From Cymodocea nodosa (taxonomy: Eukaryota > Streptophyta > Magnoliopsida > Alismatales > Cymodoceaceae), in NCBI GenBank assembly GCA_036874045.1, contig CM072337.1, forward strand, positions 3,410,001 to 3,474,000: DNA of 64,000 nucleotides, read 5' to 3'. The stretch's first letter is position 1. The number at the start of each line of letters is the position of its first letter. The position numbers and the translations under genes are program-made. This document shows, in pieces, positions 4,596-54,170 of the stretch. The notes beneath the pieces were generated by a model, which was not told where the DNA came from, searched no databases, and saw only the letters and a program-made list of their open reading frames with translations.

Positions 4596-4599
4596 TTTC

Positions 4600-17379: not shown

Positions 17380-19364
17380 TGTTTAGAATGAAAAAGTGCA
17401 TAATATTAACGGTTAAATGATGGTTAATTGCATAATATTTAGCTTATCATACGAGAATTCAGCCATTATGTTATAATTGCACTATTAGATGCTTTAATGG
17501 AAGAATCTGCATAATTCCAGGGAATTAATGTTAATTTAGTACATTTCTGAACTATCAGTAAATTGCAGGCTGTGAAATTCTTGAGTATTCGAATTTTCTG
17601 TTATTTCGGAGAGTTATGTTTAATGTACTAGACAGTTATGTTTTAAATGCTTAAAGAATATTTTATTATTTCCTGAATTACATGTGTTGAAACTACAATG
17701 CATGACTTAAGTGGATTTTTGGAAGGTTATTTGTAACTATCCGAAATGCATCTGAGCAACGGATAGTTAGGTTCGTAAGTGTCCGAAATATTTGAACTTG
17801 TTAAGATAGAATTATGCACGTATTGAATTTAAATGCTTTAGTATATCACGTGAGATGCACATGTTTAACTCGTTAAGTTAGTATAACTGTACACGTTGAG
17901 TTACATGAATACACACTAACGTAACACGTTATGTTAACGGCTTATTTCTTTATTGCACGTGTTTTATAGTTAAATCAACGAAGTAAGTCTATTGAGTTAT
18001 CTGTAATTCCATAGACCATTTATTTCCTAATATGCCACTCTAGCGGTTATAGAAACAGGACATTCAGAGGAAAACCACGATTGCACGTATCATGCAGGAA
18101 ATCGCTCGTGGAAGGAAGAAGAAATCACCATCGTTGATATGAATGAAGGAAATCCAACCAATCATCGAAGCAGAAGTAGTTACTACTAAGAAATATAAAA
18201 GACAAGGAGAAAAAAAACGAAAGAGTATGGCTAGTGTGTGTGCAAAGGAGGACAAACCGAGCTAACTGCAGGCAGCGATGGAAGTTCCCTGAAGTTCCAC
18301 ACTACCATCACCACCACCATCATAATCACCAACCATTGAAGGTCTGTAAGGATACTTTCCTGATGTCGGGTTGATTTTGAGCCAAACACGGTACCTGACA
18401 ACCACTATGAGGAGTGATCGCATCGCGTGAAGGGAAGCTATTTTCACCAAACACCGACTCATATCTCAGGAGATCGTAAAGCTTCTAGCCTTGGTTTCGG
18501 GTTGATGCTAGTATACTGAAGAGGAGATCAACTTGCAATTCTGGACTAGCGATTCTACAGGGAGAGGAGACAGAATTGTAAGTGGTTAAATTTTCAGTGA
18601 TGTAATCGCGTTGCATGTAGTGACGGAAGTTTTTACTGTCAATAGAGGTTACTTTTACATTTCACCTTTCGCCCATTTTCATGATCATATAAAAACAAAA
18701 ATACCAAAAACAATTTATCTGTTTTTATAGTTAGTATTTGAGTGTTGTATTGTTTGTTTTGTATCGTGATTATTGTTATCATTGTCAGTGTTTGGAATGT
18801 TTCATGTTTGTTTAAATTTAGAAAATAGAAAATAGTTTTATAGTTTATTGAAATTGAATCATTCCTGATACTTAAAGATTTTAATGGTTACTGTTTGAAA
18901 TATCTAAATGTTAGTGTTGCTAAATGATAAATTTAATATTAATTAGCATTAAAGAGCTTAATTGATGTTATTTACAATCTGTGGAACCACTCAATGGTTG
19001 ACCGAATTCCTTTGTAAATAGCAGTATTAAACTAGATAGATAGCTTTCTTGAGTTACTTCAATTTCACGAGGTTAGTTCGTTGAGTTAGCTATAACTCAA
19101 CAAAGTGCTTACTGAATATATAAATTTCATTATAAAAAAAAATAGAACAGTACACAATTCTTCCTCAATTCTTTGTGGGATCGACCTATACTTGCACACA
19201 AATACAATATGCATACACTGTGCACTTGCAATTAAAATACAAATTGGAATTAATATCTAATTTGTGTGAAAGATGGTTTGTTGACTTCTAAAAAGGAATT
19301 AATGATAAGCATAAAGATAAATTAACTAAGTTACAAACAAAAGTTAACAAGGCAGACATGTTTT
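17380..19364 (+). mobile_element. E2 5' LTR (Ty3/gypsy)
   Basis: Starts TGTTTAGAATG after GTAAG and ends just before the first PBS. It has a TATA box at 19117-19125 and the U5 text TGTGGGATCGACC. U3 contains a module of about 140 bp (17805-17945) that resembles the copia A U3 and is absent from the E1 LTR. By eye it is closer to the E4 LTR than to E1 or E3. Confidence 0.85.
17805..17945. repeat. Copia-like module inside the gypsy U3
   Basis: On the minus strand the order is TAACGTGTT-like, TTAGTGTGTATTC, CAACGTGTACAG, TAACTTAACGAGTTAAACAT, GTGCATCTCACGTGATA. The copia A LTR has the same order (compare 24893-25000). Equivalent modules occur at 43635-43765 (E3) and 48165-48310 (E4). TGCACGT occurs on both sides of it. 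Confidence 0.65.
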
Positions 19365-19448
19365 CTAGCACCGTTGCTGGGGACCTAAGTAAGTTCTTTG
19401 GTGCCGCCCAAAAAGCCAAGACAGGTTTTCTAGCGCCGTTGCTAGGGA
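19356..19448 (+). repeat. Duplicated E2 primer binding site
   Basis: Two PBS-like sites, TAGCACCGTTGCTGGGGA (19366-19383) and TAGCGCCGTTGCTAGGGA (19431-19448), each follow GACAnGTTTTC, the LTR end. The unit is about 65 bp. Both have TAGC in place of the TGGC expected for tRNA-Asp. Confidence 0.7.
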
Positions 19449-27463: not shown

Positions 27464-29705
27464 TGAGGAAGATGACACTTGAGTTCTGGGAAAAGGCAGT
27501 AGACACTTCAGAATTTCTTAAAGACTCGAAGGAATGGCACACGAGGTAGAAAATCAGGAATACGACAAGTGAAAAAGAACTACAAAAGGTAGAATCTGAA
27601 CTTTTCAACTAGAGAAGAGTTTTAGTAGATTTGGGTATACAAATACCTCAAATAATAGAAACAAGAATAAAGGTTGCTATGGAAATTGTTGTAAGCAAAG
27701 AGAGAAAAATCAGGCCAAACAACAAAGTTGCCCTAGAATTAATCCAATGTAAGTCCCAACTCTAGTTCAAAAGACGAATAGGTAGACCAGCTCAATGGGC
27801 GATCTAGGAGCAAGAAAGGAAAGAAAATGAAGAAGAGGTAACTAAAGAACAAGAGGAGCCGACTACTGAAAGACCTGTTCTTGAGGAACAACAGCCAGGA
27901 CCTTCAAATCCACCTCCTAAACCATTAGAAAGGGTGGTAATTATGGGGCCTTCAAACGAAGAAGAATTAAGAGAATTTGAAGAACTGGTTCAAGTTGGGA
28001 AAAACCAAGGAGAATTAGAAGATTTGGTAGTGGCTAAAGCACACCTAGTGTTCAATGCACTTTACAAAAAGAGGGCTGCAGAAAAGTTGAAAGCCCAATA
28101 TAAAATCAAAGTAGAACAACATCAAGAAGCTACTGCCAAACCTGCTGCAAAAGGAGATGAAGCTGGTCCTTCGAGACTAGTAATTATTGAAATAGTTAAA
28201 CAGGAAGAGCCAGTATCTGTGGCTCAAAGGCGTGCAGAGCCTATTTTTGTGGATTTAATTTCAAACGAGGAAGAGGAAGATCAGACACAATTAATTAAAA
28301 AAAGGAAAGGAAAAGAGATAGTGTCTAAATATCAAGAGGAGATTAAATCTGAAAGACAAATGTCAATAGGGCTTGTAGAGCCCATTTTTGTAAACCTGCT
28401 ATCCGATTCTGAGGAGGAGCAGGAGCAACAGCAAAAGCAAAGAGAAGAAGAAAAATAGGCTGAAACTAGTCTACAACCTGTACAAATAGAAGAAACAGAA
28501 ATTAGGGTAGAAACTGATTTGCCCTGAACTCCATCCCAATCTGCCACAAAATTAGAAAAAATAGTGACAATGCAGATTGGTAGTCAAGAAGAAGAAGAAG
28601 AAAAAAAAATGAACAAGAAGTTGAACAAGTATATATGGAAAGAGAGGACTCAACAAATTCCATTGAAGAGCAAGAAAATCTTCAGTAATTTATGGAAAGA
28701 ATTCAAGACAGAGTAGAGAGTTTTGCCAGCTCACCACCATAGACAAAAGTAGAAGCAAAAATGCCAGAATTTGTGGAGCATTTTCAGCAAGTACAAGTTT
28801 AGCATTTGGAAGAGGAAGTTCAAGAACAAACCCCTCAGGAGCAACAAATGCATATTCCTGATCCTTCTGAAGCAACAATTTTAAATGAAGTACATTTTCG
28901 AAGTCAAGAAGCTTATGACAAATACCAAGAGATTTGGGGTTATACTATCATTTACAGTAGACCAGTAAATTGGGACAGAATGCAAGAAATCAAAGAATTA
29001 TTTGAATTCCAAGGTCTACTGAAGTTTATTTCTCAAGAAAGAGGGCATGCAGTATATGAGAATCTAGTGTCCTGCTTCTATGAAAACTTATGAGAAGAAG
29101 GAGGATTAATTTCCAACGTGGAGGAAGTTGATGTACAAATAACACTAGAGCTTCTCCACAACATTTTAGGATTGAAAAATGAAGGGAAAGAAATTTTGGG
29201 AAGCACAACTATCGTTGAGTGGACAAAAGAGGTAATCAAGGATTGTTTAGCTATTAATCCTGGTGTATCGTTATTAAATAGACTAAAGTAGTTAAATGGT
29301 ACAACACACATGATAGCAAATATTCTAATTAAGAATGTCTACCAACGACAAGGCCATGATATAGAACTAAGTCAATTTGTCAAGTGGGCCACATATGCAG
29401 TTGTAAATAGAATTCAAATAAATTGGTCTGTAGTTTTTATCTCCAAGCTGAGAATAGTGAAGAAGAAAATGTTTTATGGAGATCTGATTCCACTACTGAT
29501 GGTGGATTGTATCGATTTCACTAAATGGGCATCCAAAAGGATCAGATAAAGAACCATTTCAATGAAAGAGTACAGAAATTATGTAGCTGTAGAGATTGCT
29601 GAACCTTCTAGAGGAATTACAAGAGCTGTAGAAAGGATTAACCAATTAGAGCAACAAGTAGAAAAACTCCAAAAGGAAGTAGATGAACTTAGGAGAAGAG
29701 ACTAA
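27464..29705 (+). pseudogene. E2 PF20167-like ORF
   Basis: Begins MRKMTLEFWEKAVDTSEF and ends ERINQLEQQVEKLQKEVDEL, stop at 29703-29705. A 174-codon open block (27934-28458) is Glu-rich (VAKAHLVFNALYKKRA, EAGPSRLVII, VNLLSDSEEEQE). The conserved C-terminal part has RSQEAYDKYQEIWGY, YSRPVNWDRMQEIKELFEF, LLHNILGLKNEG, NRIQINWSVVFISKL and FYGDLIPLLMVDCIDFTKW, in the order expected for the PF20167 plant-transposon domain. Stops include 29091-29093 and 29547-29549. Role unknown; it occupies the place of the env-like ORF in Athila elements. Confidence 0.75.
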
Positions 29706-30149
29706 ATTGTATTGTTCATCTACTTGTATATTTTTGTATGAAAAATATCTGATTAAGTTGTAATGTAAATTTTTCATATTAATGAATATATGTTTTTCAG
29801 ATATATTTTTCATTCGTGTTTGAGAATGATGAAATGGATGAGCTATATTGAATATTCTATAATTTGTGGAACATTATGCAAGATTGTTTAAAAGATTTAC
29901 AATTTGCTAAATGGTAGGATTAAATGAAAGATAATTGATTAATGCTTGAAAATATCTACATGCTGCAAAGTAAAATATAAATTTTGCATAACATGAAATG
30001 AACTGCAAGTTAAAATTTTATATAATGTTCAGATTTAAATGAGTTTTAATTAGAATGCTGCATTAATGACATGTATTTAACTTTATTTAAGTTGGAAAAA
30101 TGCAAGAGAGTAGAAAAGTATTTACGAGGAGTAAACTTAAAGGTTGCTA
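29706..30149 (+). other. E2 noncoding stretch after the PF20167-like ORF
   Basis: AT-rich, without ORFs. It matches the tails of E1 (1663-2051) and E3 (36840-37235). I see no other feature in it. Confidence 0.6.
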
Positions 30150-30680
30150 AATGTTAACTCAACGAAGTAAGTCCATTGAGTTAACCTTAACTCCACGAGG
30201 TCAGTAATATAATATAAGGTCACTCCGTTGAGTTATCTGTAACTCAACGAAGTTAGTCCGTGGAGTTAGCAGTAGTAACCGAAGCTATTCCGTTGAGTTA
30301 TCTGTAACTCAACGAGGTTAGTTCGTGGATTAAGCTAAACGGTTATTCTTTTAGCCACAAATGAAACTTCATGGGTTTAGCGGTTACTGAAATTTGAAAT
30401 TAGAAGTGGCACACATACCCATAAAAATAGGAACCACACTACACGTCACAAGACACGTTCTTGCAACGAGATTTATTTCCTTTATAGGCGTGCATTATAA
30501 ATATAAAATAGAATATTATTTACTAGTTACCAGCACTTTTGAGAGAAAAGAAAATTCGTTGGAGAACTGGAAGGAGAAGCAGTTGATTCAACTTCATCTG
30601 TCAACAACTATTTACTGAATAGAAAGCTTTGAACTAGTATGTAATTAATCTTCTACTGTTTTACTATATGTTAAGAGTTT
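30150..30680 (+). promoter_or_regulatory. E2 spacer with palindromes and TATA box before gag
   Basis: About six inverted GTTGAGTTA/TAACTCAAC or GTGGAGTTA units occupy 30155-30345. TTATAAATAT (30495-30504) is a TATA candidate, about 185 bases before the gag ATG. The 5' leader then has CTAGTATGTAATTAATC; E3 and E4 read GGTATGTAATTAATC, a possible splice donor. E4 has lost most of this spacer. Confidence 0.5.
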
Positions 30681-32008
30681 ATGAGCACATGGACTCGTTC
30701 TCCTAGCACTAAACGATTAGTAAGAACACCTACCTAGGAGTATTCAACACAGAATTGGACTTTAACGAAATCCTTAGGGGTGTAGCAAACCTTTCTTAAA
30801 AAGAGAACGAAGATATGGCTGCTCTAGTAGAAAAACCGTTAGAGAAAATTCTATATCCTGAATTAGTTGATGAACCTTCATGTATTCGATTGCCAAACTT
30901 TGAGGGAGATAGGTTTGAAATGAAATCTAATTATAATAGTCAATTGCCACATTTTCATGGATTAGAAAGAGAGGATGCCTATTACTTCCTTAGAGAATTT
31001 AACGAAGTTTGTCAAATGATGAAAATGCTGAATATGAGTATAGATGCTATTAAACTTAGATATATCTCTTTTGCTTTAAAAGACACAGCTAAGATATGGT
31101 TATATACTCTATCGCCTAATTCAATTTCTACATGGACTGAATTTTGCTCTATTTTTCTAGAAAAATAGTATCCAACACATCAAATAATTAAAAAGAAAAA
31201 GGAAATATTAATGTGTAGCTAAAAATAGGGAGAATCATTCTGGAAATATTTTGAAAAATTTATAGATTTACTGACTCAATGTCCGCATCATGCAATGAGT
31301 AAAGCACAATTAATAAATATAATTTATGAAGGCATAGATGTTTCAACAAAATCTTTATTAGAATCTACTTGTCAGAATGGATTTGTAAAATTGTGTAGTG
31401 AAGAAGCATGGGCATACTTAGAAAATTTTGCAAAAAAAACTACATAGTGGGAGAACTCAGCTGAAGCTATTGCAGATAAAAGAATATTGCCAAGGGAAAT
31501 GCATGAAATAGATTCAAGCACTATGCTGGAAGTGAAATTAACTGAATTAACAAAGAAAATAGAAGAGTTATCATTAAATCAAAAACTAGCAGAAAAGAAT
31601 GCAGACATTAATGATCTAGATATTATTTATGCTAGAAACCAGAAAGATTACTTTGGAAATTCATATAACCCTAATTGGAGAAATCACCCGAATTTATCTT
31701 GGAGAAACAATAATTTCCATGGAGGAGAAAATATAAATGACAAGAATATAAGTTATGAAGCATTAATTGAACAAGGATCTAGAATAGAGAAATTAGAAAA
31801 GATAATTCAACAATTAAACAATCATCTAGATTTTGTATTTGGAAATGCTGCAATTCAAAATCAAAATATCAATAGAAATATACCCCCTAGACAAAAAGAA
31901 TCAATAGAAGTTAGACCTACTGGAGAATTACCAATGCAAGTAGTACCTAATCCTATTAACAGAACTATTAATGAAATTGATACCTCCTCTAGGAGGGTAG
32001 CTAAATGA
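30681..32008 (+). pseudogene. gag: E2 gag capsid ORF located downstream of pol
   Basis: Athila-type Gag from ATG 30681 (MSTWTRS) to TGA 32006-32008. Landmarks are CIRLPNFEGDRFE, LPHFHGLEREDAYYFLREF, IDAIKLRYISFALKD, AKIWLYTLSPNSISTWTEF, YWKYFEKF-like text, LTQCPHHAM, EEAWAYLENFA and NPNWRNHPNLSWRNN. These match the order of the capsid and C-terminal region of Athila/Tat Gag. The zinc knuckle expected before NPNWRNHP is absent here and found instead in the leader at 19531. One frameshift in the N-terminal region and stops near 31168, 31216 and 31446 break it. Normally this ORF precedes protease; here it follows integrase and the PF20167-like ORF. Confidence 0.88.
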
Positions 32009-32240
32009 AGTAGTATAACTGAAGTAACTATGTATAATATAGTAAGTAGAAAAATATAAAATATAAAATATATATATATATATGTAAGTTTACTTATAGT
32101 TAATAGTATCGTAGAGTTATTACTTAACTCAACGAACTTAATCCGTTGAGTTATGACCTAACTCCATGAGGGTGTGAAGTAGTTATGTTAATTTTTGTCT
32201 CTACTAAATTTTTTGTTTATATTATATAGAATCACAACAA
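32009..32240 (+). promoter_or_regulatory. Gag/F-box spacer with palindromes and candidate intron
   Basis: Holds an AT microsatellite (32056-32082), inverted TAACTCAAC/GTTGAGTTA repeats (32110-32165), a GTAAGTTT donor-like site (32082) and a T-rich tract ending TATATTATATAG just 15 bases before the F-box ATG. E4 keeps both GTAAGTTT and a matching TTATACAG. An intron of about 150 bp, or a splice acceptor for a subgenomic F-box mRNA, fits. Both readings are inference. Confidence 0.45.
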
Positions 32241-33380
32241 ATGGAATTCTTAAAATTACCACTAGACGCACAAAGGGAAGTACTGAGTAACTTGTCAACT
32301 AAAGATCTGTGTAGATTATGTTGTGTATCAAAGGATATTAAAGATTGTGTTAGAGAAAAATATTTTCATGAACTACAAGCTGCAAAAATGACTAAGATTA
32401 GAGATGGATTTTTATGGAAGTCATTTAATCGTAATTCAATCAGCTATGAATATCTGAATATGGATGAAACTACTGGAATTCCACCCAATGCATTAGAAGG
32501 AATAGATCATATTATGGGGATGGATGAATGATTAATTATATACAGAACCAAACCAAGGTATGCAATTCTATTACCTGATATTTTGATTAGAAATCCTCTC
32601 ACAAGAGAAGAATAGAATATAAGAAGGCCTAATAGATATGAAGTACCAATTGAAAATTGTGGGTTAGCTTTAATATTTTTTGATAAAAATTCGACCATTC
32701 TTGTAAAATTATATTATTAGAGACCTACTAGAAATTGGGATGAAGATTTATGCTTAAGTGTGTATAATTTTCTGAATAGATCTTGGACTTAAAACACTAT
32801 GATATATCTAGAACAGAAATCCTTAATTAACTGCATACATGTCATACTTGATGGATATATATATTTAGTCACAGATATATCAGTTGCATTTAGATCTGAT
32901 TTATACATAGTAAACATAGATAGTTATGATAATGACTATATAGAAATTTTGCCTATACCAAGTGATATAGCTAAATCACTATCTACAGAATATAATAAAA
33001 TTCAATTAGGAATGTGGTATAATGAATATGATGATCCTACTCTATGTCTGATAAAATGGTGGGATGAATTGAAGAAATTTCAAATATGGATTATAAAAGA
33101 CCTAAATGAATGGAAGTGGGAAGAGGAATATATTGAAATAGATGTAGAAATAGAAATAGCCACACTATCTTGGAACAAAAGAGGATCTCTTTCTGCATTT
33201 CATTTCATTAATAGAAATACACTTATATTTAGTATTGATAACATACTGCAAGTTTAAAAATTAAAAAGGAAAATAGACTACATTGAAACAGAATTGATAG
33301 CAAGAAGAATTATGCCAAAAAAGTTTGCTTGGATTGACACATTTATTCCATTTGTTACTACTTTTCAGTCATATTCTTAA
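32241..33380 (+). pseudogene. E2 captured F-box/FBA gene
   Basis: A 380-codon frame without any frameshift from ATG 32241 to TAA 33378-33380, broken by five stops (32529-32531 and four later, two at codons that are Trp in the E4 copy). Residues 5-37 form an F-box (LPLDAQREVLSNLSTKDLC, RLCCVSKDI), the part that binds SKP1 in SCF ubiquitin ligases. The rest matches the F-box-associated (FBA) domain of plant F-box proteins: ILIRNPLTREE, LCLSVYNFLNRSW, HVILDGYIYLVTDISVAF, IDSYDNDYIEILPIPSD, WWDELKKFQIWIIKD. FBA domains bind the substrate. It lies 233 bases after gag. Two other copies keep the same place. Confidence 0.88.
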
Positions 33381-33700
33381 AGTATGATTCTATGTTTTTA
33401 ATGTTGTCTGTAGTCTGCATTTATTTTTAGAAAAAAAAAAAACAAAACAAAACAAAAATATCAATCCAGTTTGTTGGTATCCGTTCTGGAAAACCAGCTG
33501 GCTTGCTTGTGAGCCACCAAAGGCATAGGAGTCTGGGTTCCACACAAGACACTAATTTATCAATATTTGTTAAATGTTATTTTGTTATATATTCTGCTCT
33601 TATCTGTGAATGAAAAGTTTTTCAAAATCAAAAAATTAGAATATACAAAAGGAGATACAAACGAAACAAGGTATGTAATTGATTACTTATCCTGAATTCT
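33381..33700 (+). other. E2 3' noncoding region up to the tail-to-tail junction
   Basis: Matches the E4 region 50240-50560 in reverse, including TGTGAGCCACCAAAGGCATA and a donor-like AAGGTATGTAATTGATTAC. It ends at GAATTC (33697-33702), where the E3 copy begins in the opposite orientation. The rest of the 3' noncoding region, PPT and 3' LTR are missing. Confidence 0.7.
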
Positions 33701-34749
33701 GTTTTAATGCAGTTCTTATTCCTTCTTAATATGTAAACATGTAATATATTATAAATTCCAAATACAAGTGTATTACCATTAATGATATGCAATGCAAAAA
33801 GGGATCATTTTTGGTTCTAGGGTAATGTAGCAGTTTCTATTTCTACATCTATTTCAATATACTCTTCTTCCCACTTCCATTCATTTATGTCTTCCATAAT
33901 CCATATTTGAAATTTAATCAATTTATCCCACCATCTTATCAGACATAAAGTAGGATCATCTTCTTCATTATACCACATTCCTATTTGAATTTCATTAAAT
34001 TCTGCAGATGATGGTTTAGCTATTTCACTCGGTATAGGTAAAATTTCTATATATTCATCATAACTGTCTATGCTCACTATGTATAAATCAGATCTATATG
34101 CTATTGATATCTCTATGACTAAATAGATATATCCATCAAGTATGACATGTGTTTGGTTAATTAATGATTTCTATCCTAGATATATCATAATATTTTCATT
34201 CTAAGATCTGTTCAAAAAATTATACACACTTAAGCGTAAATCTTCACCCTAATTTCCTGTAGGTTTCCAATAATATAATTTTTCAGGAATTGCAGACTTT
34301 TTATCAGAAAATATTAAAGCTGACCCACAATTTCTAGTTGGTACTTCATATCTATTAGGTCTTCCTATATTACATTCTTCTCCTATTATAGGATTTCTTA
34401 TCAAAATATCAGGTAATAATAAACTTGCATACATTGGTCTCGTCTTGTATATGATTAATCCTTCATCTATCCCTATAATATGATTTATTCCTTCTAATGC
34501 ATTGGGTGGAATTCCAGTAGTTTCTTCCATAGCCAGATATTCATGGTTAATTGAACTACAATTAAATGACCTCCATATGAATCCATCTCTAATCTTAATC
34601 ATTTTTGCAGCTTGTAGTCCTTGAAAATATTTTTCTTCAATACCGTTTTTAATTTCCTTTGATACACAACACAACCTGCACAGATCTTTAGCTGACAAGT
34701 TACTTAGTACTTCCCTTAGTGCATCCAACAGTAATTGCATCAATTCCAT
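33701..34749 (-). pseudogene. E3 captured F-box/FBA gene, 3' truncated
   Basis: Starts MELMQLLLDALREVLSNL, with the F-box at residues 5-37 (KDLCRLCCVSKEI). Open for 166 codons, then stops at Trp and Glu/Gln positions and a second open block (34077-33817) with ILPIPSEIAK, LCLIRWWDKL and KFQIWIMEDINEWKWEEEY of the FBA domain. The last 30 or so codons are lost at the fusion with E2. The frame is kept from ATG to the fusion except for a small length change near IDSYDEY. Same cargo as E2 and E4, about 80% alike by eye. Confidence 0.85.
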
Positions 34750-34939
34750 TTGTCGATTGTGTATAACACAAACAAAAATTTAGCAGAGACAAAAATTAAC
34801 ATAACTACAGCACACCCTCGTGGAGTTAAGGCATAACTCAACGGACTAAGTTCGTTGAGTTAAAAATTAACTCTATGATACTATTAACTAAAAATAAAAA
34901 ACATATATACATACAGATAGTTGCTTCAAATATGCTGCT
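34750..34939 (-). promoter_or_regulatory. E3 gag/F-box spacer
   Basis: Contains TAACTCAACG/CGTTGAGTTA inverted repeats (about 34822-34872), the counterpart of 32110-32165. The splice-acceptor AG seen in E2 and E4 is lost (GTTATACACAATCG). Confidence 0.45.
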
Positions 34940-36283
34940 TCATTCAGCTACCCTCCCAAAGGAGGTATCAATTTCATTAACTGTTCTATTGACAGGATTA
35001 GGTATACCTTGTATTGGCAATCCTCTAGTAGGTCTAACTTCCATTGGTTCCTTCTGTCTAAGAGATATATTTCTATTCTGATTTTGAATTGCAGCATTTC
35101 CAAATACAAAATCTACACGATTGTTTACTTGTTGGATTATCTTTTCTAATTTCTCTATTCTAGATCCTTGTTCAATTAATACTTCATAACTTATATTCTT
35201 CTCATTTATATTTTCTCCTACCTGGAAATTGTTGTTTCTCCAAGATAAATTCAGGTGATTTCTCCAATTAGGATGATAAGAATTTCCCAAGTTATCTCTC
35301 TAGTTTCTAGCATAAATAATATCTAAGTCATTTATGTTTGCATTCTTTTCTACTAGCCTTTGATTTAATGATAACTCTTCTATTTTCTTTGTTAATTCAT
35401 TTAATTTCACCTCAAGCATAGTGTTTGAATCTATTTCATGCATTCCTCTTGGCAATATTTTTTTATCTGCAATAGCTTCAACCGAATTTTCCCACTATGC
35501 AGTTCTTTTTGCAAAGTTTTCTAAATATGCCCATGCTTCTTCACTACATAACTTTAAAAATCCATTTTGATAAGTAGATTCTAATAAAAATTTCGTTGAG
35601 ACATCTATGCCTTCATAAATTATACCTATTAATTGTGCTTTACTCATTGCATGATGTGTACATTGAGTCAGTAAATCTTTAAATCTTTCAAAATATTTCC
35701 AAAATGATTCACCCTATTTTTGGCTACACATTAATATTTCTTTCTTCTTTTTAATCATTTGATGTGTTGGATAATATTTTTCCAGAAAAATAGAGCAAAA
35801 TTCAGTCCATGTAGAAATTGAATTAGGCGACAGAGTATATAACCATCTCTTAGTTGTGTCTTTTAAAAAAAAAGGGATATATCTAAGTTTAATAGCATCT
35901 ATACTCATGTTCGGCATTTTCATCATTTGACAAACTTCGTTAAATTCTCTAAGGAAATAATAGGCATCCTCTCTTTCTAATCCATGAAAATGTGGCAATT
36001 AACTAATATAATTAGATTTCAGTTCAAACCTATCTCCCTCAAAGTTTGGCAATCGAATACATGAAGGTTCATCAACTAATTCAGGATGCAAAATCTCTCC
36101 TAATGGTTTTTCTATTGGAGCAGTCATCTCTACGTTCTCTTTTAAAGAAAGGTTAGCTACACCCCAAAGAATTTTGTTAAAGTTTAGTTTAGAAAATTTT
36201 TCAGTACTCCTCTGCAATGAAAATTCTTGGGTAGGTATTCTTACTAATCGTTTAGTGCTTAGAGAACGAGTCCATTTGCTCAT
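34940..36283 (-). pseudogene. gag: E3 gag capsid ORF downstream of pol
   Basis: Starts MSKWTRSLSTKRLVR. Key blocks are ANLSLKENVEM, CIRLPNFEGDRFELKSNY, LPHFHGLEREDAYYFLREF, LRYIPFFLKDTTKRWLYTL, ECHH-type CTHHAM, EEAWAYLENFAK and HPNWRNHLNLSWRNN. Stops occur near 35999 and 35714, a Gln/Trp change near 35495 and one near 35300. It keeps the N-terminal part that E2 lost to a frameshift. It lies between the PF20167-like ORF and the F-box, as in E2 and E4. Confidence 0.87.
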
Positions 36284-37235
36284 AAATAAATAGCAGAAGA
36301 TTAATTACATACCAAACTGAAGCTTTCCATTCAATAAATATTTGTTGTCGGATGAAGTTGAATCAGCTGCTTCTCCTTCCAGTTCCTCCAACGCATTCTA
36401 CTTTCTTTTAAAAGTGTTGGTAACTCGTAAATAACATTCTGTTTCATATATATACTGCACATCCATAAAGTGAATAAATATCGTTGCAAGAACGTGGCTT
36501 GCAACGTGCATCGTGGTTCTTGTTTTTATGGGTACATGTACCACTACTAATTTCAAATTTTGGTAATCGCTAAACCGACGAAGTTTCATTCGTGGTTAAA
36601 AGAATAACCATTCTGCTTAATCCACGAACTAACCTCGTTGAGTTACTGAAAACTCAACAGAATACAGTCGGTTACTATTGCTAACTCCACAGACTAACTT
36701 CGTTGAGTTACTGATAACTCAACGGAGTGACCTTATTTTATATTACTGACCTCGTGGAGTTACGCTTAACTCAACGAACTTACGTCGTTGAGTTAACACT
36801 TGGCAACTTCTAAGTTTTACTCTCATAAGTTCCTCTTTGTTCTTTTTTTTTTTTCTTTTTCATTCTGCTAACTGAAATAAAGTTAAATCTATGTCATTAA
36901 TGCATCATTCTAATTAAAATATGTTTAAATCTAAACATTGTATAAAGATTTAACTTGCAGGTCATTTTATGTTATGCAGAATTTACATTTTACCTTACAA
37001 CATGCAGAAATTTTTAAGTAGTTATCTTGTCATTCAGCAAATTGTAAATCTATTACATATTCATTTTTAAAGTTCCACAATTTACATAATATTCAATAAA
37101 TTCCATTCATTTCAAATCCAAAACGCGTATGAAAATTGCATCTGAAAAATTTAGATTCATTAATATGAATCAATTACATTACAAGTACGTCATACAATTT
37201 CATACAATTTTACAAAAGTAGACGAACAATACAAT
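36284..37235 (-). promoter_or_regulatory. E3 spacer between PF20167-like ORF and gag
   Basis: The left half holds about six inverted TAACTCAAC/GTTGAGTTA units (36625-36800) and the leader GTTTGGTATGTAATTAATC before the gag ATG. The right half (36840-37235) is noncoding tail with a poly-A/G tract on the minus strand. It is collinear with 29706-30680 in E2. Confidence 0.5.
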
Positions 37236-42199: not shown

Positions 42200-42250
42200 A
42201 ATTCAATTCAATTCAGTTCAGTTCAATTCAATTCCCCGACAATGGCACCA
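42200..42250 (-). other. E3 PBS with adjoining ATTCA repeat
   Basis: TGGTGCCATTGTCGGGG (42250-42234, minus strand) is a tRNA-Asp-type PBS with changes. It is followed by the ATTCA/TTCAG repeat (42233-42200) shared with E1. Confidence 0.75.
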
Positions 42251-42509
42251 TAAAACTTATTTGGGTTTTCCTAGCACTACACTAGAAAAACATTGATTTG
42301 TTACTTCTGTTTTTACTTAGTTAATTTGTCTTTATGCCTATTCTCTCTTTTAGAAGTAAACAAACAACCTTTAATACAATTTAGATATTAATTCCAATTT
42401 GTAATTTAACTGCAAGTGCATAGTGTCTATTGTATCAATGTGCAAGTACAGGTCGATCCCATAGGGAATTGTTGAAGAACTTGAGAACTATTCGTTTGTT
42501 AACAATCAA

Positions 42510-42518
42510 ATTTATATA
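42510..42518 (-). promoter_or_regulatory. TATA box of the E3 LTR
   Basis: TATATAAAT on the minus strand at the same place as in E1 and E2, after the palindrome array. Confidence 0.6.
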
Positions 42519-43634
42519 TTCAATAAGCTCTCCGTTGACTTATAGTTAACTCAACGGACTAAGTTCGTTGAGTTATGGATAACTCAACGGACTAACCTCG
42601 TGGACTTAAGTTAACTCCACGAGCCTGTCTTTTCTTTTTAATACTGCTATTTACAGAGGAATTCGGCCAACCATTGGGCGATTCCATAGATTGTAAATAA
42701 CATCAATTAAGCTCTTTAATGTTAGTTAACATTGGATTTATCATTAAGCAATACTAACATTCAGATAATTCAAACAGTAACCATTAAAATCTTTAAGTCT
42801 TTTGAACGAACCAATTTTAGTAAACTGTAAAACTAAAATAAACATAAAACAATCACAACACTAACAAAGATAACATTAATCACGATACAACACAAACAAT
42901 ACAACACTCAAATACAACATACAAACATAGATAAATTGTTTTTGGTATTTTGGTTTTAATATGAACATGTAAATGGGCGAAAGGTGAAATGTAAAGTAAT
43001 CTCACTTGACAGTAAATACTTCCAACACTACTTGCAACGCGATTACACCACTGAAAATTAAACTACTTACAATTCTGTCTCCTCTCCCTATAGAATCGCG
43101 AGTCCAGAATTGCAAGATGATCTCCTCTTCAGCATACAGGCATCAACCCGAAGCCAAGGCTAAAAGCTTTACGATCTCCTAAAATATGAGTCGGCGTTTG
43201 GTGAAAATAGCTTCCCTTCCCGCGATGCGATCACTCCTCACAATGGTTGTCAAGCACTGTGTTTGGCTCGGAATCGACCTGACATCAGGCAAGTATCCTC
43301 ATAGACCTCTGATGGTTGGTGATTATAGTGGTGATGATGATGGTTGGTGTGGTACTTCAAAGAATTGCGACGCTCATCCTCCTCTACATACACTGTCCGC
43401 CCATCAATCACACACGCACTCTTTACTTCTTTTTCTTCTTTTCTTTTATATTTCTTCAGTAGTAACTGCTTCTGCTTGAATGGTCGATTGGATTTCCTTC
43501 ATTCATATCAACAGCGATGCTTTCTTCTCCCTATGACGATTGAATTCCTACGTGATACGTGCGATCGTGGTTTTCCTTCCAACTGTCTTGTTTCTGCAAC
43601 CGCTATAGCGGCATATTAGAAAATATAAAGAAAT

Positions 43635-43765
43635 AAGCTGCTAACATAACGCGTTACCTTAGTGTATATTCATGTAACTCAACACGTACAGTTATGCTAA
43701 CTTAACGAGTTAAACATGTGCATCTCACGTGATATACTAAAGCATTTAAATTCAACACGTGCATA
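43635..43765. repeat. Copia-like module in the E3 U3
   Basis: Same segment as 17805-17945: AACGCGTTACCTTAGTGT, CAACACGTACAG, CTAACTTAACGAGTTAAACA and GCATCTCACGTGATA in this order on the plus strand. Confidence 0.65.
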
Positions 43766-44533
43766 AATTTAACTATCCAATGCTTAGGTGCATTTCGAAT
43801 ACTAATAAACTTAACTATCTAATGCTCAGATGCATTTCGGATAGTTACAAATAACTCACTGATATATAACTTAAGTAAATCTACCAGATCTCGGCACGTG
43901 TCAACAACAGTTTAATCGTAAAATAACATTTCGGAGAGTTACAGGTCTATCTATCCGATGCTCAGATGCATTTCGGATAGTTACAGCTAACTCACCAAAA
44001 ATCTACTTAAGTCACTTTACTAGAACATGACACGTGTCCTCAGCTATTTTATAAATAAAAAGAGATTTCGGAGAGTTATACATATAATTGTCCGATGCCC
44101 AACTGCAATCTTAGATAGTTATAGATAACTCACCGAAAGTTCACTTAAGTCATGCATTATGGTTTGGACATGTGTACTTCAGGAAATAATAAAATATTCT
44201 CTCAAAACATAACTGTTCGGCAATTTAAACATAACTATTCGATACATGTTTGGTCTGTTAAACATAACTGTCTGAATATGTTCGGTATGTTAAACATAAC
44301 TATCTAAAATATCAGAAAATTCAGATATTTAAGAATTTCACAGCCTGCAACTTACCGACAGTTTAGAAATGTACTAAATTAACATTAATTCCCCTAAATT
44401 AAGCAGATTCTTCAATTAAAGCATATAACAGTGCAATTATAACATAATGTCTTAATTCTTATATGATAAGCTAAATATTATGCAATTAACCATCATTTAA
44501 CCGTTAATAATATGCACTTTTTCATTCTAAACA

Positions 44534-46766: not shown

Positions 46767-46767
46767 G

Positions 46768-48738
46768 TAAACTTGTATTGATTTGTCTTTATGCTTATAT
46801 AAATAATTACTTTTAGAAGTAAACTAACAACCTTTCACATAAATTAGATATTAATTCCAATTTGTATTTTAATTGCAAGTGCATAATGTATATTGTATTT
46901 GTGTGCAAGTACAGGTCAATCCCACAAAGATTGAGTAAGAATTGTGTACTATTCTGATTTTTATATTGGAGTTTATGTGTTCAGTTAAGCACTCTGTTGA
47001 GTTACAGTTAACACAACAGACCTAGTTCATGGAGTTATGGCTAACTCAACGGACTAACTTCATGGACTTAAGTTAACTCCACGAGCCTATCTTTCTAGTT
47101 AATTACTGCTATTTACATAGGAATTTGGCCAACCATTGGGCGGTTCCATAGATTGTAAATAACATCAATTAAGCTCTTTAATGTTAGTTAATATTAGATT
47201 TATCATTAAGCAATACTAACATTCAAATATTTCAAACAGTAATTATTAAAATCTTTAAGTATCTAGAATAAATCAATTTCAGAAAATTGTAAAACTATTT
47301 TCTATTTTCTGAATCAAACAAACATAAAGCACTCACAATACGGACACTGATAACATTAATCACGATACAAAACAAACAATACAACACTTTAATACTAAAT
47401 GTAAACATAGATAAGTTATTATTTTTGGTATTTTTGTTTTGATGTGTTCATGAAGATGGGCGAAAGGTGAAATGTAAAAATCTCTATCGACAATAAAAAC
47501 TTCTATCACTACATGTGACGTGATTACACCACTGAAAACTTAATCACTTACAATCCTGCCTCCTCTCACTATAGAATCGCGAGTCCAGAATTGCAAGATG
47601 ATCTCCTCTTCAACATACTAGCATCAACCTGAAACCAAGGCTAGAAGCTTTATGATCTCCTGAGATATGAGTCGGTGCTTGGTGAAAATGGCTTTCCTTC
47701 CTATGACGCGATCACTCCTCATAGTGGTTGTCAAGCACCGTGTTTGGCTTGGAATCGACCCGACATTAGGAAAGTATCCTCACAGACCTCCGATGGTTAG
47801 TGATTTTTGGTGATGGTGTGGAGCTTCAGTGAATTTCTGACACTGCCTGCAGTTAGCGCGGTCCTCCACCTCTACACACACAGCCAACCACCCTTTCTTC
47901 ATTTTTCTCCTCTTCTTTTATATTTCTTCCATAGTAACTGCTTCTACTTAGATGATTGATTGGATTTCCTACATTCATATCAATGATGGTGATTTCTTCT
48001 TCCTTTCATGAGTGAATTCCTATGTGATACGTGCAATCGTGGTTTCCCTTCAAATGTCTTGTTTCTGTAACCGCTATAGTGGCATATTAGAAAATAAATG
48101 GTTTGTGGAGTTATAGATAACTCAACAGACTTACATCATTGATTTAACTATAAAACACATGCAATAAAGAAATAAGCTGCTAACATAACGTGTTACCTTA
48201 GTGTGTATTCATGCAACTCAACGCGTACAATTATACTAACTTAACGAGTTAAACATGTGCATCTCACGTAACATACTAAAGCATTTAAATTCAACACGTG
48301 CATAAATCTAACTTAACAAGTTCAGATATTTCGAACACTTACGAATCTAACTATTTGATGCCTAGATGCATTTTGGATAGTTAACAGATAACTTACCGAA
48401 AATCCACTTAAGTCATGTATTAAGGTTTCAACATGTGTATTTCAAGAAATAATAAAATATTCTATTATCGTTAAAAATACAATTGTCTGGTACATGCAAT
48501 ATAACTCTCTAAAACAATAGAAAATTCAGATACTTAAGAATTTCACAACTTACAATTTACCGATAGTTCATAAATGTACTAAATTAACATTAATTTCTTG
48601 GAATTATGCAGATTCTTTCATTAAAGCATATAACAGTGCAATTACAACATAATGGCTTAATTTTCATATGATAAGCTAAAAATTATGTAATTAACCATCA
48701 TTTAATCATTAATATTATGCACTTTTTCATTCTAAACA
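46768..48738 (-). mobile_element. LTR closing E4, with PPT on one side and PBS on the other
   Basis: Starts TGTTTAGAATG at 48738 after the PPT and runs 1,971 bp to ACAAGTTTA next to the PBS. It includes the copia-like U3 module (48165-48310) and the U5 text. It serves as 3' LTR of E4. The PBS on the other side is expected only for a 5' LTR. Confidence 0.85.
48165..48310. repeat. Copia-like module in the E4 LTR U3
   Basis: AACGTGTTACCTTAGTGTGT, CAACGCGTACAA, CTAACTTAACGAGTTAAACA and GCATCTCACGTAACATA occur in the same order as in E2, E3 and the copia A U3. Confidence 0.6.
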
Positions 48739-48790
48739 CTTCCCCCATACTTAAATTTTTCTAGTCCCTTAGCAAACTAAGATCTAACTA
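48739..48790 (-). other. E4 polypurine tract with conserved upstream text
   Basis: On the minus strand, TTGCTAAGGGACTAG, AAAATTTAAGTATGGGGGAA and G stand directly before TGTTTAG of the LTR. Plant Ty3/gypsy elements of this group commonly have GA(G/C)GAC(A/T)AG..., TTTAAGT.TGGGGG at this place. This is the only intact 3' terminus of the family here. Confidence 0.85.
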
Positions 48791-50568
48791 GTTGGTCTTC
48801 CTAAAGTGCTAAATTTAATTCTTCATTTCGTTCTTCTTCAGATTAATAAATTAGATTACTACATAGATATTCTGTATGCTTTAGTAATCTATTTTAACTT
48901 TGTTTTCTCCTCTTCAACCTGCAAATATATTTAGAATATATGTAAATTACATATAAAATATATCAGCATCACATAGGTGTTAATTATATTATCATTTTTT
49001 TTTCTTTTCAGTATCTATCATCCTAAATTTCCCAATATGATTTCCAGAATAAATTTCAACAACATACGAATCAAAACACAATCCAATTCAATATGATTAA
49101 GATAAGTAGAATAAAGAATTGTATCTCAAATAAACAACTTCAAAAGTCTATTCTAGATCCATACTTCAGTAATCTTAGATAATAGAAAATATACTTGATT
49201 CAAAAGATATCTGTATTTCACAAAACACTTTTATCTTTTCAAAATAGTATATGCATATTTGTACTTTAAAAGTTAATTTGAAAAGCTTGAATCATATAAG
49301 AGCTTTCTATTGTACCCATGTATCGAGCTTTTAGTCAACAATCCTAGATCTAATCAGGATCTTAGGTTGCCAAATTTAAAGAGTCATTTTTTAGGTCAAC
49401 AATCCTTACATACCTATCTGCTCAAGTACAAAAGGCTCATGATCAAACAAGTCAATAAACTCTCAAAGTTTTTCTCTTTTTTCCTCTCTCTTTTTTCTTT
49501 TCAATACAGTATATATACATATTCTACTAATACAGATGCAATAAAACACAAATCTCATATAGTCCTGCTTCTATTATTTACTGAAAATATGAATCCATAT
49601 CAATAAGCTCATACTTTTTCTATAGTTAAATAAGATCTACACATAAATCATTCTACAAGTTTAATCAACCAAATTAAATGTATCATTAATCATATGTATT
49701 TCATTTAATCCAAAAATCAACATTTCAGCTCTTCCAGGATTTTAGATAATTTACTGAGTTTCAGTTAAGCATTTTGTTTTCTTTTTAAAATCATGAAACT
49801 GTTAAACTCATAAAATTCAGCAAAAACATAAGATACTATATCTAGATTTGTATGAATAGTAAAATTCTGTATCATCTTATGTAACATTCAAGCAATTATA
49901 GTTCTTAAAAATTTACAGTTTCAATTATCGGATAGTTATAGCAAATTCATAAATAAATAAAAAATTTCAATTTCCACAAAACTTTGCAGTACCATTCTAA
50001 TTCCTCTAATTAACAAAATTACATGGTTATTACTTTAATTACCTTCCCTCCATACCTACATTTTGCATTGTCCTCAATGTAAAAGATTTTACAGTAAATA
50101 TAGTAATTGTAGCAAGCATGAATATTATTTCGTTGACTTAGCACCTAACTCAACGAACTTAATTCGTTAAGTTAATGAATAATTCCACGAACTGAGTTTA
50201 AATGTAAATTCAGGATAAGTAATCAAATACATACCTTGTTCTTTTCTATCTCCTTCAATATCTTCTGATTTTTTATTCTAAAAATCTTTTCATTCACAAA
50301 TAAAAGCAGAATATATAACAAAATAACATTTAACAACAAAACAGATATTGTTAAATCAGTGTCTTGTGTGGAACCTAGGCTCCTATGCCTTTGGTGGCTC
50401 ACAAGTAAGCTAGTTGATTTCTAAGAATAGATACCAACAAACTCGATTGATATTTTGTTTTTTTTTTCTTTTATAAAATAAAGCTAAAACTAAAATTTTT
50501 TCTTTTCTTTTTCATTTTCTAGAAATAAATGCAAAATACACACAACATTAAAATTACAGAGTCACAGT
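48791..50568 (-). other. E4 long 3' noncoding region with a second PPT-like site
   Basis: About 1.8 kb between the F-box stop and the PPT with no convincing ORF. At 50040-50095 (minus strand) it holds TTTTACATTGAGGACAATGC, then GTAGGTATGGAGGGAAGG, which resembles the text before a gypsy 3' LTR. At 50126-50190 it has TAACTCAACG/CGTTAAGTTA-type palindromes. The part nearest the F-box matches 33381-33700 of E2. Confidence 0.6.
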
Positions 50569-51095
50569 TTAAGAACATGATTGAAAAGTAGTAACAAATG
50601 GAATAAATGTGTTAGTCCATGTAAACTTTTTAGGCATAATTCTTCTTGCTATTAATTCTGTTTTCATGCAATCTGTTTTCCTTTTTAGCTTGTAAACTTG
50701 CAGTATGTTATCAATACTAAAGATAAGTGTATTTCCATTAATGAAATGAAATGTAGAAAGGGATCCTCTTCTATTCCAAGATAATGAAGCTATTTCTATT
50801 TCTACATCTATTTCAACATATTCTTCTTCTCACTTCCATTCATTTAGGTCTTTCATAATCCATATTTGAAATTTCCTCAATTCATCCCACCATCTTATTA
50901 GACATAAAGTAGGATCATCATATTCATTATACCACATTCCTAATTGAATTTTATCATAATCTAAAGATGGTGGTTTAGCTATATCACTCGGTGTAAGCAA
51001 TATTTCAATAAAATCATCATCATGACTATCTATGCTTACTATGTATAAATCAGATCTAAATGCAACTAATAAATCTGTGATTAGATATATATATC

Positions 51096-52675
51096 TGTAG
51101 GACCGTATGGCTACACAAGAGGGGGGTGAATTGTATTTTTCAATATTTTCGAATATAATTGAAACTTTAAAACTCAAAAACAAGTCAAGACATTGTTTTC
51201 ATAAAATCATTTTTATTCAAGGTTTCAATTACAATATACAATTCAATTCTCCTTAGAAATTGTAGATGCAATTATATCTCGATACCATGTATCATCTAAA
51301 CAATTTCATAACTACAAACAGAGAAAACTAATTTGCGAAATTTAAAGCATTTCTCCCTGTTTGAGATCTTTCTTCTTCTTTTTCTTTTTCTTCTTCAGTA
51401 ATTCTTCAATGACGAATATCCTGTCTTTTTATGCTTCACCGAATTCGCTTTCTTCTGATACTTTAAATCTTCAATGATGTAAATCTTACCTTTTTATGCT
51501 TCATTGAATTTGCTTCCACCTAAGAGATTTTCCTCGAAGAGGTGTTTTTGATCCTTGAAAAGATTTTTCGTTTGATGTGCAAGGATAATTTGATCAATGA
51601 GAATTCTATACCTTTTATACTGTATCTTCATTTCATGCATATCCTCCATGTTTAATCACTACCAATTTTCCACTTCTTCACGTCTTTTCTTTTTCCTTCA
51701 TCGAAATACACACGTTTTGACCCACGTTTACATTTCAAATTTTCTTTAATCATCAATCATGGATCTCTAAAAAATTTCCTGCAAAATAAACTTTCTCGTC
51801 CAAAATTTTTCATCAAGTATAATATGAAATCATTACTTTAATGTTAACTAAACGAGTAACACAAGTATATATATAACTTAACGTTTTCAACTTAGTGAGT
51901 TTCTCATGTGCCAATTCACGTGACAAGTATTGTAGCTAACTCAACAAACTAACTCTGTAGTGTTATGCTAACTCAACCAACCATCTCTATTGTGTTACGA
52001 TAACTCAACGAACTAGTAATAAACAAATGTTTTTATAATAAGAATTTTACCACGTGCAAAAATAACAACTTAAGTTTTATAATGCTAACCTAACGTGCTG
52101 CCTTAGTGTTCAATATAGCAACTCAACGCGTTTAGTTATGTTAACTTAACGAATTAAACATGTGCACCTCACGTGATTCAATATAACATTCGTAACTTAT
52201 AATTTCACCACGTGTATAACACTAACTTAACGAATTGTCTAAACTTTTACTCACTAACTTAACGAGTTCGTCTCTTTTTTTACTTACTAACTTAGCGAGT
52301 TCTCACATGACCTATTTTAACCTTTAAGCCTCTAACTTAACGAGTTCTCACGTGATCTCTATATGACTAAAACTCTAACTTAACAAGTTTTCCAAACGTG
52401 CACTATAAATGATACAGAAAATATAACTTTAAAACATATCATGCTTTTCAATAAAAACACATGTTAACTTAACGTTTAGTTAAATGACAAATTAATGCAA
52501 TGAAATGACTAATTATTAACTTAGTATAATTTCAGATCCAATACAATCAAGTATTTATATCAGTAAGTTTTTTCTGTATTAATTAATGATTTTAATTTCC
52601 TTTCACAAGCAATAGTAATTGAGCAAATATGATTAATTTCGTTCAGCACACATCATCAAAACAAAATACTCAACA
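51096..52675 (-). mobile_element. 3' LTR of the one-LTR copia A element
   Basis: Runs from TGTTGAGTATTTTG (52675) to CCTACA (51096), ending CACCCCCCTCTTGTGTAGCC. Same family as 19690-21366, with the ACTCGTTAAGTTA/CACGTG array in U3. Confidence 0.9.
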
Positions 52676-53163
52676 ATCTCCCCCTTTTTGATGATGACAA
52701 AACCATATTAAATCAATTATGAAATATCTTTAACTCAACTAAGCACCTTCGTTGGGTTAACTTTTAATTCAACAAACAAGTTTGTTGACTTAAGTTCACT
52801 TAAGCTTATTTCTATTGTTTGTGTAAATTTCACCTCTCAGAACTAAAACTTTCAAATGTCAATAATTATATAAGTATCATTTCTCTAATTATCATCTGTC
52901 AAATTACAATAACCATAAATATCATCTCCCTTTATATTATATGCAATTAAAATCATAATCATCTTTTTATAACATTTCTCCCCCTTTTTGTCATTAATCA
53001 AAAAGATAATTACAAAGAATATATATATAGTAAGAGATATATTTACAACTCTTTCTATAAACAATGATAAGAATAGAATGCATTTACAGAAAAATGTATT
53101 GTTCAATGAATCAAACAAGGAATACAAACATTACATTTTGTATTCAGATACAAACAAAAATAG

Positions 53164-53552
53164 TTATCGACCCCTCCTAAGTATATCACTTATAGCATTA
53201 CAAATTTTATCTCCTAGATGCCTAATATCATTTTTGATGTCGTTAAGTACATCATCTAGGTCAGGAGGTATCTAAGTTTGCTGTTCTGCTTAAACTGAAT
53301 AACTTTGTTGTTGTTGTTGTATATGGTCTGTACAATCAAGTTGTTGTTGTTGTTGTTGAGGTTTATGCATGGCCTAGAATCATTGTAAATCTTTTACACT
53401 AAATGCTCTCATGCCTTTAGTTTTAGAGGGCCAGTCAGATAAATTCAATTGGCTTGCAAGGATTCTACATACAACATCACCATAAAATAACTTTGAACTC
53501 ATATGCTGTAGTTGAGAAGTAAAAACATCAAACCAATTGTACTAGATCAACA
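53164..53552 (-). pseudogene. Copia A last ORF, C-terminal part with PF20167-like end and poly-Gln
   Basis: The frame reads NWFDVFTSQLQHMSSKLFYG, DVVCRILASQLNLSDWPSKT, KGMRAFSVKDLQ, then Gln-rich stretches from CAA repeats, then LDDVLNDIKNDIRHLGDKIC to a stop at 53166-53164. In-frame stops are present. The first block aligns with INWSVVFISKL, KKKMFYGDLIPLLMVDCIDF and TKWASKR of the gypsy PF20167-like ORF. In SIRE-type copia the last ORF lies after pol, as here. Function unknown. Confidence 0.6.
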
Positions 53553-54170
53553 ATATCCATCAAGTATGACATGTATGTTGTTAATTAATGATTTTTGTCC
53601 TAGATATATCATAGTATTTTCAGTCCAAGATCTATTCAGAAAATTATACACACTTAAACATAAATCTTCATCCCAATTTCCAATTGGTCTCCAATAATAT
53701 AATTTTTTGGGAATGGTCAAATTTTTATCAAAAAAGATTAAAGCTGACCCATAATTTTCAGTTGGTACTTCAAATCTATTAGGCCTTCCTATATTCCATT
53801 CTTCTCTTGTGATAGGATTTCTAATCAAAATATCAAGTAACAGAATTGCATACCTTGGTTTGGTTCTGTAAATAATTAATCCTTCATCTATACCCATAAT
53901 ATGATCTATTCCTTCTAATGTATTGGGTGGAATTCTAGCAGTTTCTTCCATATTCAGATATTCATAGCAGATTGAACTACGATTTAATGACTTCCATAAA
54001 AATTCATCTCTAATCTTAGTCATTTTTGTAGCTTGTAGTCCATGAAAATATTTTTCTCTAACACAGTCTTTAATATCCTTTGATACACAACACAATCTGC
54101 ACAGATCTTTAGTTGACAAGTTACTCAGTACTTCCCTCAGTGCATCTAGTGGTAATTTCATCAATTCCAT

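Follow-up and report, generated by a model that had tools for sequence, protein, structure and literature searches.

An F-box/FBA-like gene carried behind a gag 3' of pol in Ty3/gypsy retrotransposons of Cymodocea nodosa

Plant retrotransposons carry extra open reading frames of unknown use. A stretch of 64,000 nucleotides of the Cymodocea nodosa genome (contig CM072337.1, positions 3,410,001 to 3,474,000; hereafter the window) raises the question of whether one such frame is an F-box gene belonging to the element that carries it. Self-comparison showed that the window consists of nested LTR retrotransposons with two dominant families, a Ty3/gypsy family with an LTR of ~2 kb (LTR-A) and a copia-type family with an LTR of ~1.6 kb (LTR-B); a copia gag (PF14223, 1.1e-27 in the profile scan) starts at the end of one LTR-B. 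We consider it rather probable that the Ty3/gypsy copies belong to a plant retrotransposon family with the order LTR, primer binding site (PBS), zinc knuckle/protease/reverse transcriptase (RT)/RNase H/integrase, ORF3, gag capsid, F-box/FBA-like gene, polypurine tract (PPT) and LTR, and that this family bears its own SCF adaptor. The analysis of the F-box gene is based on one window and three decayed copies (E1, E2 and E4), to which a sister copy, E0, is added for the other parts of the element. No copy in the window is intact and none has both LTRs visible. Coordinates are collected in Table 1.

Table 1. Positions of the element copies and their features in the window
Feature	Position	Strand	Remarks
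E0	1664..11870	-	sister copy: LTR, PBS, zinc knuckle, pol, ORF3; stops before gag/F-box
E1	17380-33698	+	Ty3/gypsy copy with two nested LTR-B
E2	44533-33695	-	Ty3/gypsy copy, most of RT gone
E4	61987-46774	-	Ty3/gypsy copy, 5' end absent
E1 5' LTR (LTR-A)	17380..19325	+	begins TGTTTAG; 3' edge approximate
E2 5' LTR	42321..44533	-	3' edge approximate; sits in apparent copia gag start (by eye)
LTR 3' of E4	46774..48738	-	begins TGTTTAG; PPT before, PBS after
E4 PPT, AAGTATGGGGGAAG	48739..48752	-	adjoins LTR
E0 PBS	9618..9630	-	2 mismatches
E1 PBS	19431..19443	+	TGGCGCCGTTGCC with 2 mismatches; second site at 19366, 3 mismatches
E2 PBS	42238..42250	-	3 mismatches
PBS beside LTR 3' of E4	46754-46774		perfect TGGCGCCGTTGCC, 0 mismatches
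E0 5' frame	8457..9509	-	CCHC zinc knuckle, no capsid domain, continues into pro/pol
E0 protease/RT/RNase H	6321..8456	-	RVT_1 3.2e-30 and others; protease only 0.01
E0 integrase	5142..6320	-	Integrase_H2C2 2.3e-13, rve 1.1e-12
E2 integrase, 95-99% alike to E4	40140-41040		pairs with E4 59562-60416; DNA alignment
E1 ORF3 region, integrase to gag	27808..29950	+	edges approximate; alignment
E1 gag capsid frame, 3' of pol	30815..32008	+	PF03732 8e-16; codon 211 is an in-frame TAG
E2 gag capsid frame, 3' of pol	34937..36133	-	PF03732 9e-19
E4 gag frame	54396..55616	-	aligned to E1 and E2; several stops and two indels of frameshift length
E1 F-box/FBA-like frame	32241..33380	+	379 codons and stop; 5 premature stops; PF00646 1.5e-10, TIGR01640 5.3e-8
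E2 F-box frame	33695..34749	-	truncated at 33695; 5 premature stops; PF00646 4.1e-7, TIGR01640 5.1e-5, PF07734 0.025
E4 F-box frame, N-terminal half	53553..54170	-	open throughout; PF00646 4.2e-11
E4 F-box frame, C-terminal half	50569..51095	-	one premature stop; alignment
Insertion in E4 F-box	51096..53552	-	2,457 bp: copia-type LTR-B 51096-52676 and 0.9 kb; target duplication GATAT
E1 motif array (CGTTGAGTTA), ORF3-gag spacer	30155..30315	+	
E1 motif array, gag-F-box spacer	32110..32169	+	
E2 motif array, ORF3-gag spacer	36635..36795	-	
E2 motif array, gag-F-box spacer	34818..34862	-	
E4 motif array, 3' of F-box	50131..50174	-	

Copies and domains of the F-box frame

An earlier note, made from the letters of the window, had described one frame of ~380 codons with an N-terminal F-box in three copies. 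A profile search, an empty outcome of which it had named as refuting, bore this out, as PF00646 matched all three copies above its curated cut-off (4e-11 to 4e-7; in E4 the N-terminal 207 aa were scanned). For the F-box-associated domain that it had also described, TIGR01640 matched E1, over residues 113-334, and E2 (E-values in Table 1), yet with 32.5 and 22.7 bits both matches lie below the curated cut-off of 37.9; PF07734 was matched in E2 only. The scan for this domain covered E1 and E2, the C-terminal half of E4 lying outside it. A fold predicted for the E1 frame without an alignment had a mean pLDDT of 36 and was set aside.

Protein identity to the E1 frame is 72% for E2 and 85% for the N-terminal half of E4, and the terminal stop is common to E1 and E4. 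The E2 frame is cut off where E2 abuts E1. In E4 the frame is interrupted by an insertion, and both E4 halves match E1 32854-32858 at the 5-bp target duplication. E1 and E2 stand tail to tail at GAATTC (33694-33698), which may be a microhomology-driven inversion or an assembly or cloning join.

Homologues were sought with two protein searches, in both of which a relative is scored only if it has short exact words in common with the query. For the F-box frame, no homologue was found in a single-sequence search of 5.8 billion proteins (1779 candidates, E<=0.01) or in a profile search (7994 candidates scored, E<=10), nor was there a match in viral contigs or solved structures. The capture of a host gene that the earlier note had proposed would be one possible origin of the frame. 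The same protein database gave 7944 integrase relatives of 7975 scored, named plant proteins included, with a best identity of 65% among the best 120 of the 7944; the integrase had no match in viral contigs. Rfam and tRNA scans gave no match. In having an N-terminal F-box with an FBA-like region behind it, the frame resembles plant FBA-type F-box proteins (TIGR01640/PF07734); it differs from them in its sub-threshold FBA match and in the outcome of these word-based searches.

Structure and insertion of the carrier element

LTRs starting with TGTTTAG were found at 11870, 17380, 44533 and 48738. Five PBS-like sites were identified where 1.00 was expected; those of E0, E1 and E2 are of the TGGCGCC type, which we take to be tRNA-Asp-like. 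Because no chromodomain and no additional RNase H were found (Pfam, mainly on E0) and the PBS is not that of tRNA-Met, chromoviruses and Tat are excluded, which does not in itself prove Athila. The family is a non-chromovirus, probably Athila-like, Ty3/gypsy family. The copies are mosaics: E2 and E4 agree at 95-99% over ~900 bp of integrase, at 91% on the RT side and at 75-85% on the ORF3 side. This pattern is in keeping with gene conversion or recombination between copies, and recombination between copies has been reported for Athila elements (PMC2410132). E0 ends after ORF3 (1655-1664), where it abuts an LTR-A in inverted orientation, the leader of which is truncated within the PBS, and the break lies close to the point where the E2-E4 and E1-E4 alignments stop too.

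That E4 continues from the F-box to a PPT and an LTR, as had been noted earlier, was found again: 3' of its F-box come an untranslated stretch, the PPT AAGTATGGGGGAAG and an LTR starting with TGTTTAG, a join known from this one copy. The PBS beyond this LTR suggests a tandem or recombinant element, or else that a second, truncated one is present.

The LTRs of E0, E1 and E2 start exactly at TGTTTAG. By eye, the E2 flank looks like the opening codons of a copia gag; E1 and E0 interrupt LTR-B sequence, at positions ~100 bp apart. Since E1 and E2 have unrelated flanks at exact LTR starts, they are separate insertions. Combined with the junction of E4 to PPT and LTR, these two independent insertions support the proposal of the earlier note that a Ty3/gypsy element carries the F-box gene along with it. 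Alternatively, gag and the F-box gene may have entered a single time behind an element with pol, and the resulting block may then have been copied as DNA. A single window was analysed and the tail-to-tail junction of E1 and E2 (33694), maybe an inversion or an assembly join, would suit such a history; we nevertheless hold it to be very improbable, as unrelated flanks adjoin the 5' LTRs of E1 and E2, each with its exact start at TGTTTAG, E4 has a PPT and an LTR, and in the self-comparison gag-F-box had no LTR beside it towards ORF3. The flanks of E1 and E2 likewise speak against a single block from which all copies were duplicated as DNA.

The gene order of the element is the second feature of the locus. 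The earlier note had described a layout of gag followed, after about 200 bases, by the F-box. The adjacency holds in all three copies that reach beyond ORF3 (E1, E2 and E4), gag being identified by PF03732 in E1 and E2 and the distance from gag to the F-box ATG being 232 bp in E1; what had been overlooked is that this gag lies 3' of pol and ORF3. The position of the capsid 3' of integrase and ORF3 was established by profile in E1 and E2 and by DNA alignment in E4, where a 119-aa open piece of gag was scanned and gave no profile match. The alignment of E1 with E2 is unbroken between integrase and the F-box, with ORF3, the spacer and gag included. PF20167 is weakly matched in the ORF3 of E2 (0.042).

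At the other end, LTR, PBS and zinc knuckle are present in all three copies with a 5' end (E0, E1 and E2) and are collinear in the alignment. The 5' frame, which begins ~110 nt after the PBS in E0, starts in these copies with the zinc knuckle CEFCN[S/F]EGHDIS[D/N]C and then runs into pol, with the order RT, RNase H and integrase present in E0 (8456-5142). Pfam detected no capsid domain in the 5' frame of E0, which was scanned whole, or in the pieces scanned in E1 (21854-22261) and E2 (41487-42197), and none of the three copies has a CCHC knuckle in the 3' gag frame. Two other arrangements were considered and rejected. An ordinary 5' gag before the F-box is ruled out by the 5' leader of E0, E1 and E2, which is too short for gag, and by pol and ORF3 preceding; the 3' gag as a duplicate of a retained 5' gag is not borne out, as no significant similarity was found (best 20.4 bits).

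In a survey of plant elements, Ty3/gypsy elements are given as GAG-PROT-RT-RH-INT (PMC6317226), so the order found here is unusual, and the gag-first feature of Ty3/gypsy is absent. As described in the literature (PMC2410132, PMC6317226, PMC7264820), Athila/OTA (Ogre/Tat/Athila) elements share with the present family the RT-RH-INT order, the absence of an additional RNase H or chromodomain (Pfam), copy recombination and an extra ORF located 3' of pol and before the 3' LTR; a tRNA-Asp-like PBS is a further common feature. They differ in having a gag-pol order, whereas here the capsid follows pol and ORF3 and is separate from the zinc knuckle, and an F-box gene is added. Plant elements are described as commonly having additional ORFs in this position (PMC7264820, PMC11963269).

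The gag frame has a TAG at codon 211 in all three copies, located after the capsid match; this codon might be read through, or gag might be in two parts. Among its other stops, one is common to E1 and E2 and one to E2 and E4.

The non-coding parts carry a 10-bp motif (CGTTGAGTTA/CGTTAAGTTA) in arrays of 32-33 bp that are common to the unrelated Ty3/gypsy and copia-type LTRs. With at most one mismatch, CGTTGAGTTA occurs 154 times compared to 3.25 expected: LTR and spacer (28,015 nt) contain 142 of these occurrences, coding sequence (27,355 nt) contains one, and 11 lie outside both sets, the limits of these stretches having been drawn after the matches were seen. LTR-B has 63 matches in 6 copies, mostly as a direct array at 32 bp; in LTR-A and the spacers most of the motifs stand in inverted pairs, 14 apart, that repeat at ~33 bp. 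It is present in the integrase-ORF3 spacer of all four copies, in the gag-F-box spacer of all three copies and in the ORF3-gag spacer of two out of three, the last array not being universal since E4 is without it. Downstream of the F-box, the motif is present in E4 and absent from the 318 nt left in E1. The LTR-A array lies directly before a TATA-like box, and the ORF3-gag array of E1 resembles the arrays of two LTR-A copies (78% over ~90 bp). We read the arrays as putative enhancer copies that would give the internal genes promoters of their own.

Selection on the F-box gene

The F-box frame has no frameshift-length indels in any of the three pairwise comparisons, where only 3-base indels were found. 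In the gag-F-box spacer, 2, 4 and 4 frameshift-length indels were counted in the three pairs (180-217 aligned bases), and in the 3' flank of the F-box there were 4 in 313 bases. Premature stops in the frame number 11 (5 in E1, 5 in E2 and 1 in E4), and all are private to one copy. The earlier note had likewise described frames without large indels despite many stops.

Substitutions were analyzed with an N/S test based on the observed mutation spectrum and on wrong-frame controls, from which five three-state codons were dropped and the part missing in E2 was excluded. N/S is 0.62 of neutral in the true frame (344 codons, 61 S, 117 N; P 0.0023); the two wrong frames give 0.90 and 0.99. This test, which gives the weaker figure, replaced plain pairwise dN/dS (0.37-0.55). 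The comparison of dN/dS among copies, proposed as a check in the note, gave a value below neutral for the window copies by the spectrum-based test, yet four of the six plain pairwise intervals reach 1. The F-box domain alone (48 codons) has an N/S of 0.67, which is not significant.

Stop-making changes in the F-box equal the neutral expectation (12 vs 13.7), so much of its divergence is decay after insertion; those in gag are likewise neutral (9 vs 9.1). Differences between E1 and E2 at the three codon positions are near even in the N-terminal half of the F-box (26, 30 and 32), and in gag they are 30, 28 and 49. N/S in gag is 0.43 on one side of codon 211 and 0.50 on the other. ORF3 (27808-29950 and homologues) has an N/S of 0.99 (E0, E1 and E4 only), with 5 stop-making changes vs 12.1 expected and mostly 3n indels; it is apparently fast-evolving but translated. 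The constraint on the F-box, as estimated from these copies, appears moderate. Because there is no shared premature stop and no frameshift, and N/S is below neutral only in the true frame, the F-box gene was probably intact while the element amplified, as had been proposed.

Could the F-box gene nonetheless be passive cargo, derived from a host F-box transcript that was transduced once into the progenitor and hitch-hiked, its apparent constraint being a statistical accident? Transduction of host genes by LTR elements is documented in plants (cited in PMC7264820: Bs1, and surveys of maize, rice and sorghum), and both the neutral level of F-box stops and the near-even codon positions of the N-terminal half are what such cargo would display. 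The differences, however, were counted between element copies, so that earlier constraint on a host gene cannot lower N/S; in addition, N/S differs between the true and the wrong frames, none of the 11 premature stops is shared, and frameshift indels lie beside the gene with none inside. We regard passive carriage as improbable. Bs1 of maize is reportedly an LTR element with a transduced host gene. The present copies share with Bs1 and similar elements that an LTR element has host-like sequence in sense orientation; they differ in that a near full-length F-box frame is common to several copies and held in frame. To judge from the copies in the window, the F-box gene is an established component of the element rather than a one-off transduction, with at least two independent insertions, and would have been held in frame while mobile.

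Possible roles of the F-box protein

If the gene serves as an SCF adaptor, the F-box would bind host SKP1 and with it a cullin, and the C-terminal region would pick the protein for ubiquitination, so that the element would supply its own SCF adaptor. Pol would be produced from the LTR transcript, and the capsid and F-box protein from a 3' transcript of their own, to which either splicing or LTR-array copies inside the element would give rise. The most plausible class of target would be a host factor limiting the element, for example an Argonaute or an RdDM protein. Host silencing factors, Gag and integrase had been named as possible targets in the earlier note. Our preference for a host silencing factor is tentative, at less than even odds, and drawn by analogy: it is chosen because polerovirus P0 reaches SKP1 to weaken silencing and because FBW2, an endogenous F-box protein of a plant, is described as lowering AGO1 (PMC2914764). 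P0 is similar in that the F-box-like motif of a plant parasite meets SKP1 and that silencing is suppressed via AGO1, although the same source indicates that contact with SKP1 stabilises P0 rather than being directly required (PMC6593998). It is different in belonging to an RNA virus and in having an F-box-like motif only, and its likeness to the present element is one of analogy.

A selected element gene may also have another role, namely that the F-box protein turns over Gag, integrase or the ORF3 protein and thereby limits copy number or times particle maturation. The F-box adjoins the capsid frame in all three copies reaching that far, although this adjacency may only reflect shared transcription. 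Its N/S of 0.62 is nearer to that of gag (0.43-0.50) than to that of the fast ORF3 (0.99), whereas a protein engaged in an arms race would be expected to evolve faster. We consider this self-regulation, the main rival of a host target, unlikely.

The F-box protein and the non-coding motif arrays may, by analogy, form an anti-silencing system like VANC of VANDAL transposons. The distribution of CGTTGAGTTA, 142 occurrences in LTR and spacer against one in coding sequence, is suggestive, albeit with edges drawn after seeing the matches; the targets of VANC are also short motifs arrayed in non-coding parts (PMC5735166), and Ulp1-bearing VANC genes are described in a gene-capture review (PMC13317346). 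Against such a system, the motif also fills the unrelated copia-type LTR-B, which a host transcription factor fits better, no DNA-binding domain was found above cut-off in the F-box and ORF3 pieces that were profile-scanned, and the LTR array beside a TATA-like box reads as an enhancer. VANDAL and Kaonashi (KIU) MULEs with VANC share with the present family a plant transposon, a domain of a ubiquitin-like pathway and short non-coding motif arrays. They differ as DNA transposons with a SUMO protease domain instead of an F-box, and in the present window the motif also occurs in an unrelated LTR; anti-silencing has been demonstrated for VANC and would be conjectural here. We hold a VANC-like system to be distinctly improbable. 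A composite reading is scarcely less doubtful: several transcription units with copies of the LTR motif array at the head of the genes, a capsid split from nucleocapsid-pol into a 3' cassette with the SCF adaptor, and an F-box protein that would remove a silencing factor from motif-marked element chromatin, in the manner of VANC and polerovirus P0 together.

No retrotransposon-borne F-box gene was found in the titles or abstract starts of the open-licence PMC literature searched, and the term F-box does not occur in PMC7264820, PMC11963269, PMC6317226, PMC11728184 and PMC13317346. The nearest case is a tandemly duplicated 'LTR-gene' from the F-box family in Thlaspi arvense (PMC8764390).

In conclusion, the retrotransposon-borne F-box gene is real and unusual, and we infer that it functions as an SCF adaptor. 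If it is indeed a selected SCF adaptor, the question of the extra ORFs of plant retrotransposons would gain a protein with known biochemistry, whose partners would be directly obtainable. If gag is indeed split and displaced, the family would raise the question of how capsid and pol stay proportionate once they are no longer one reading unit.
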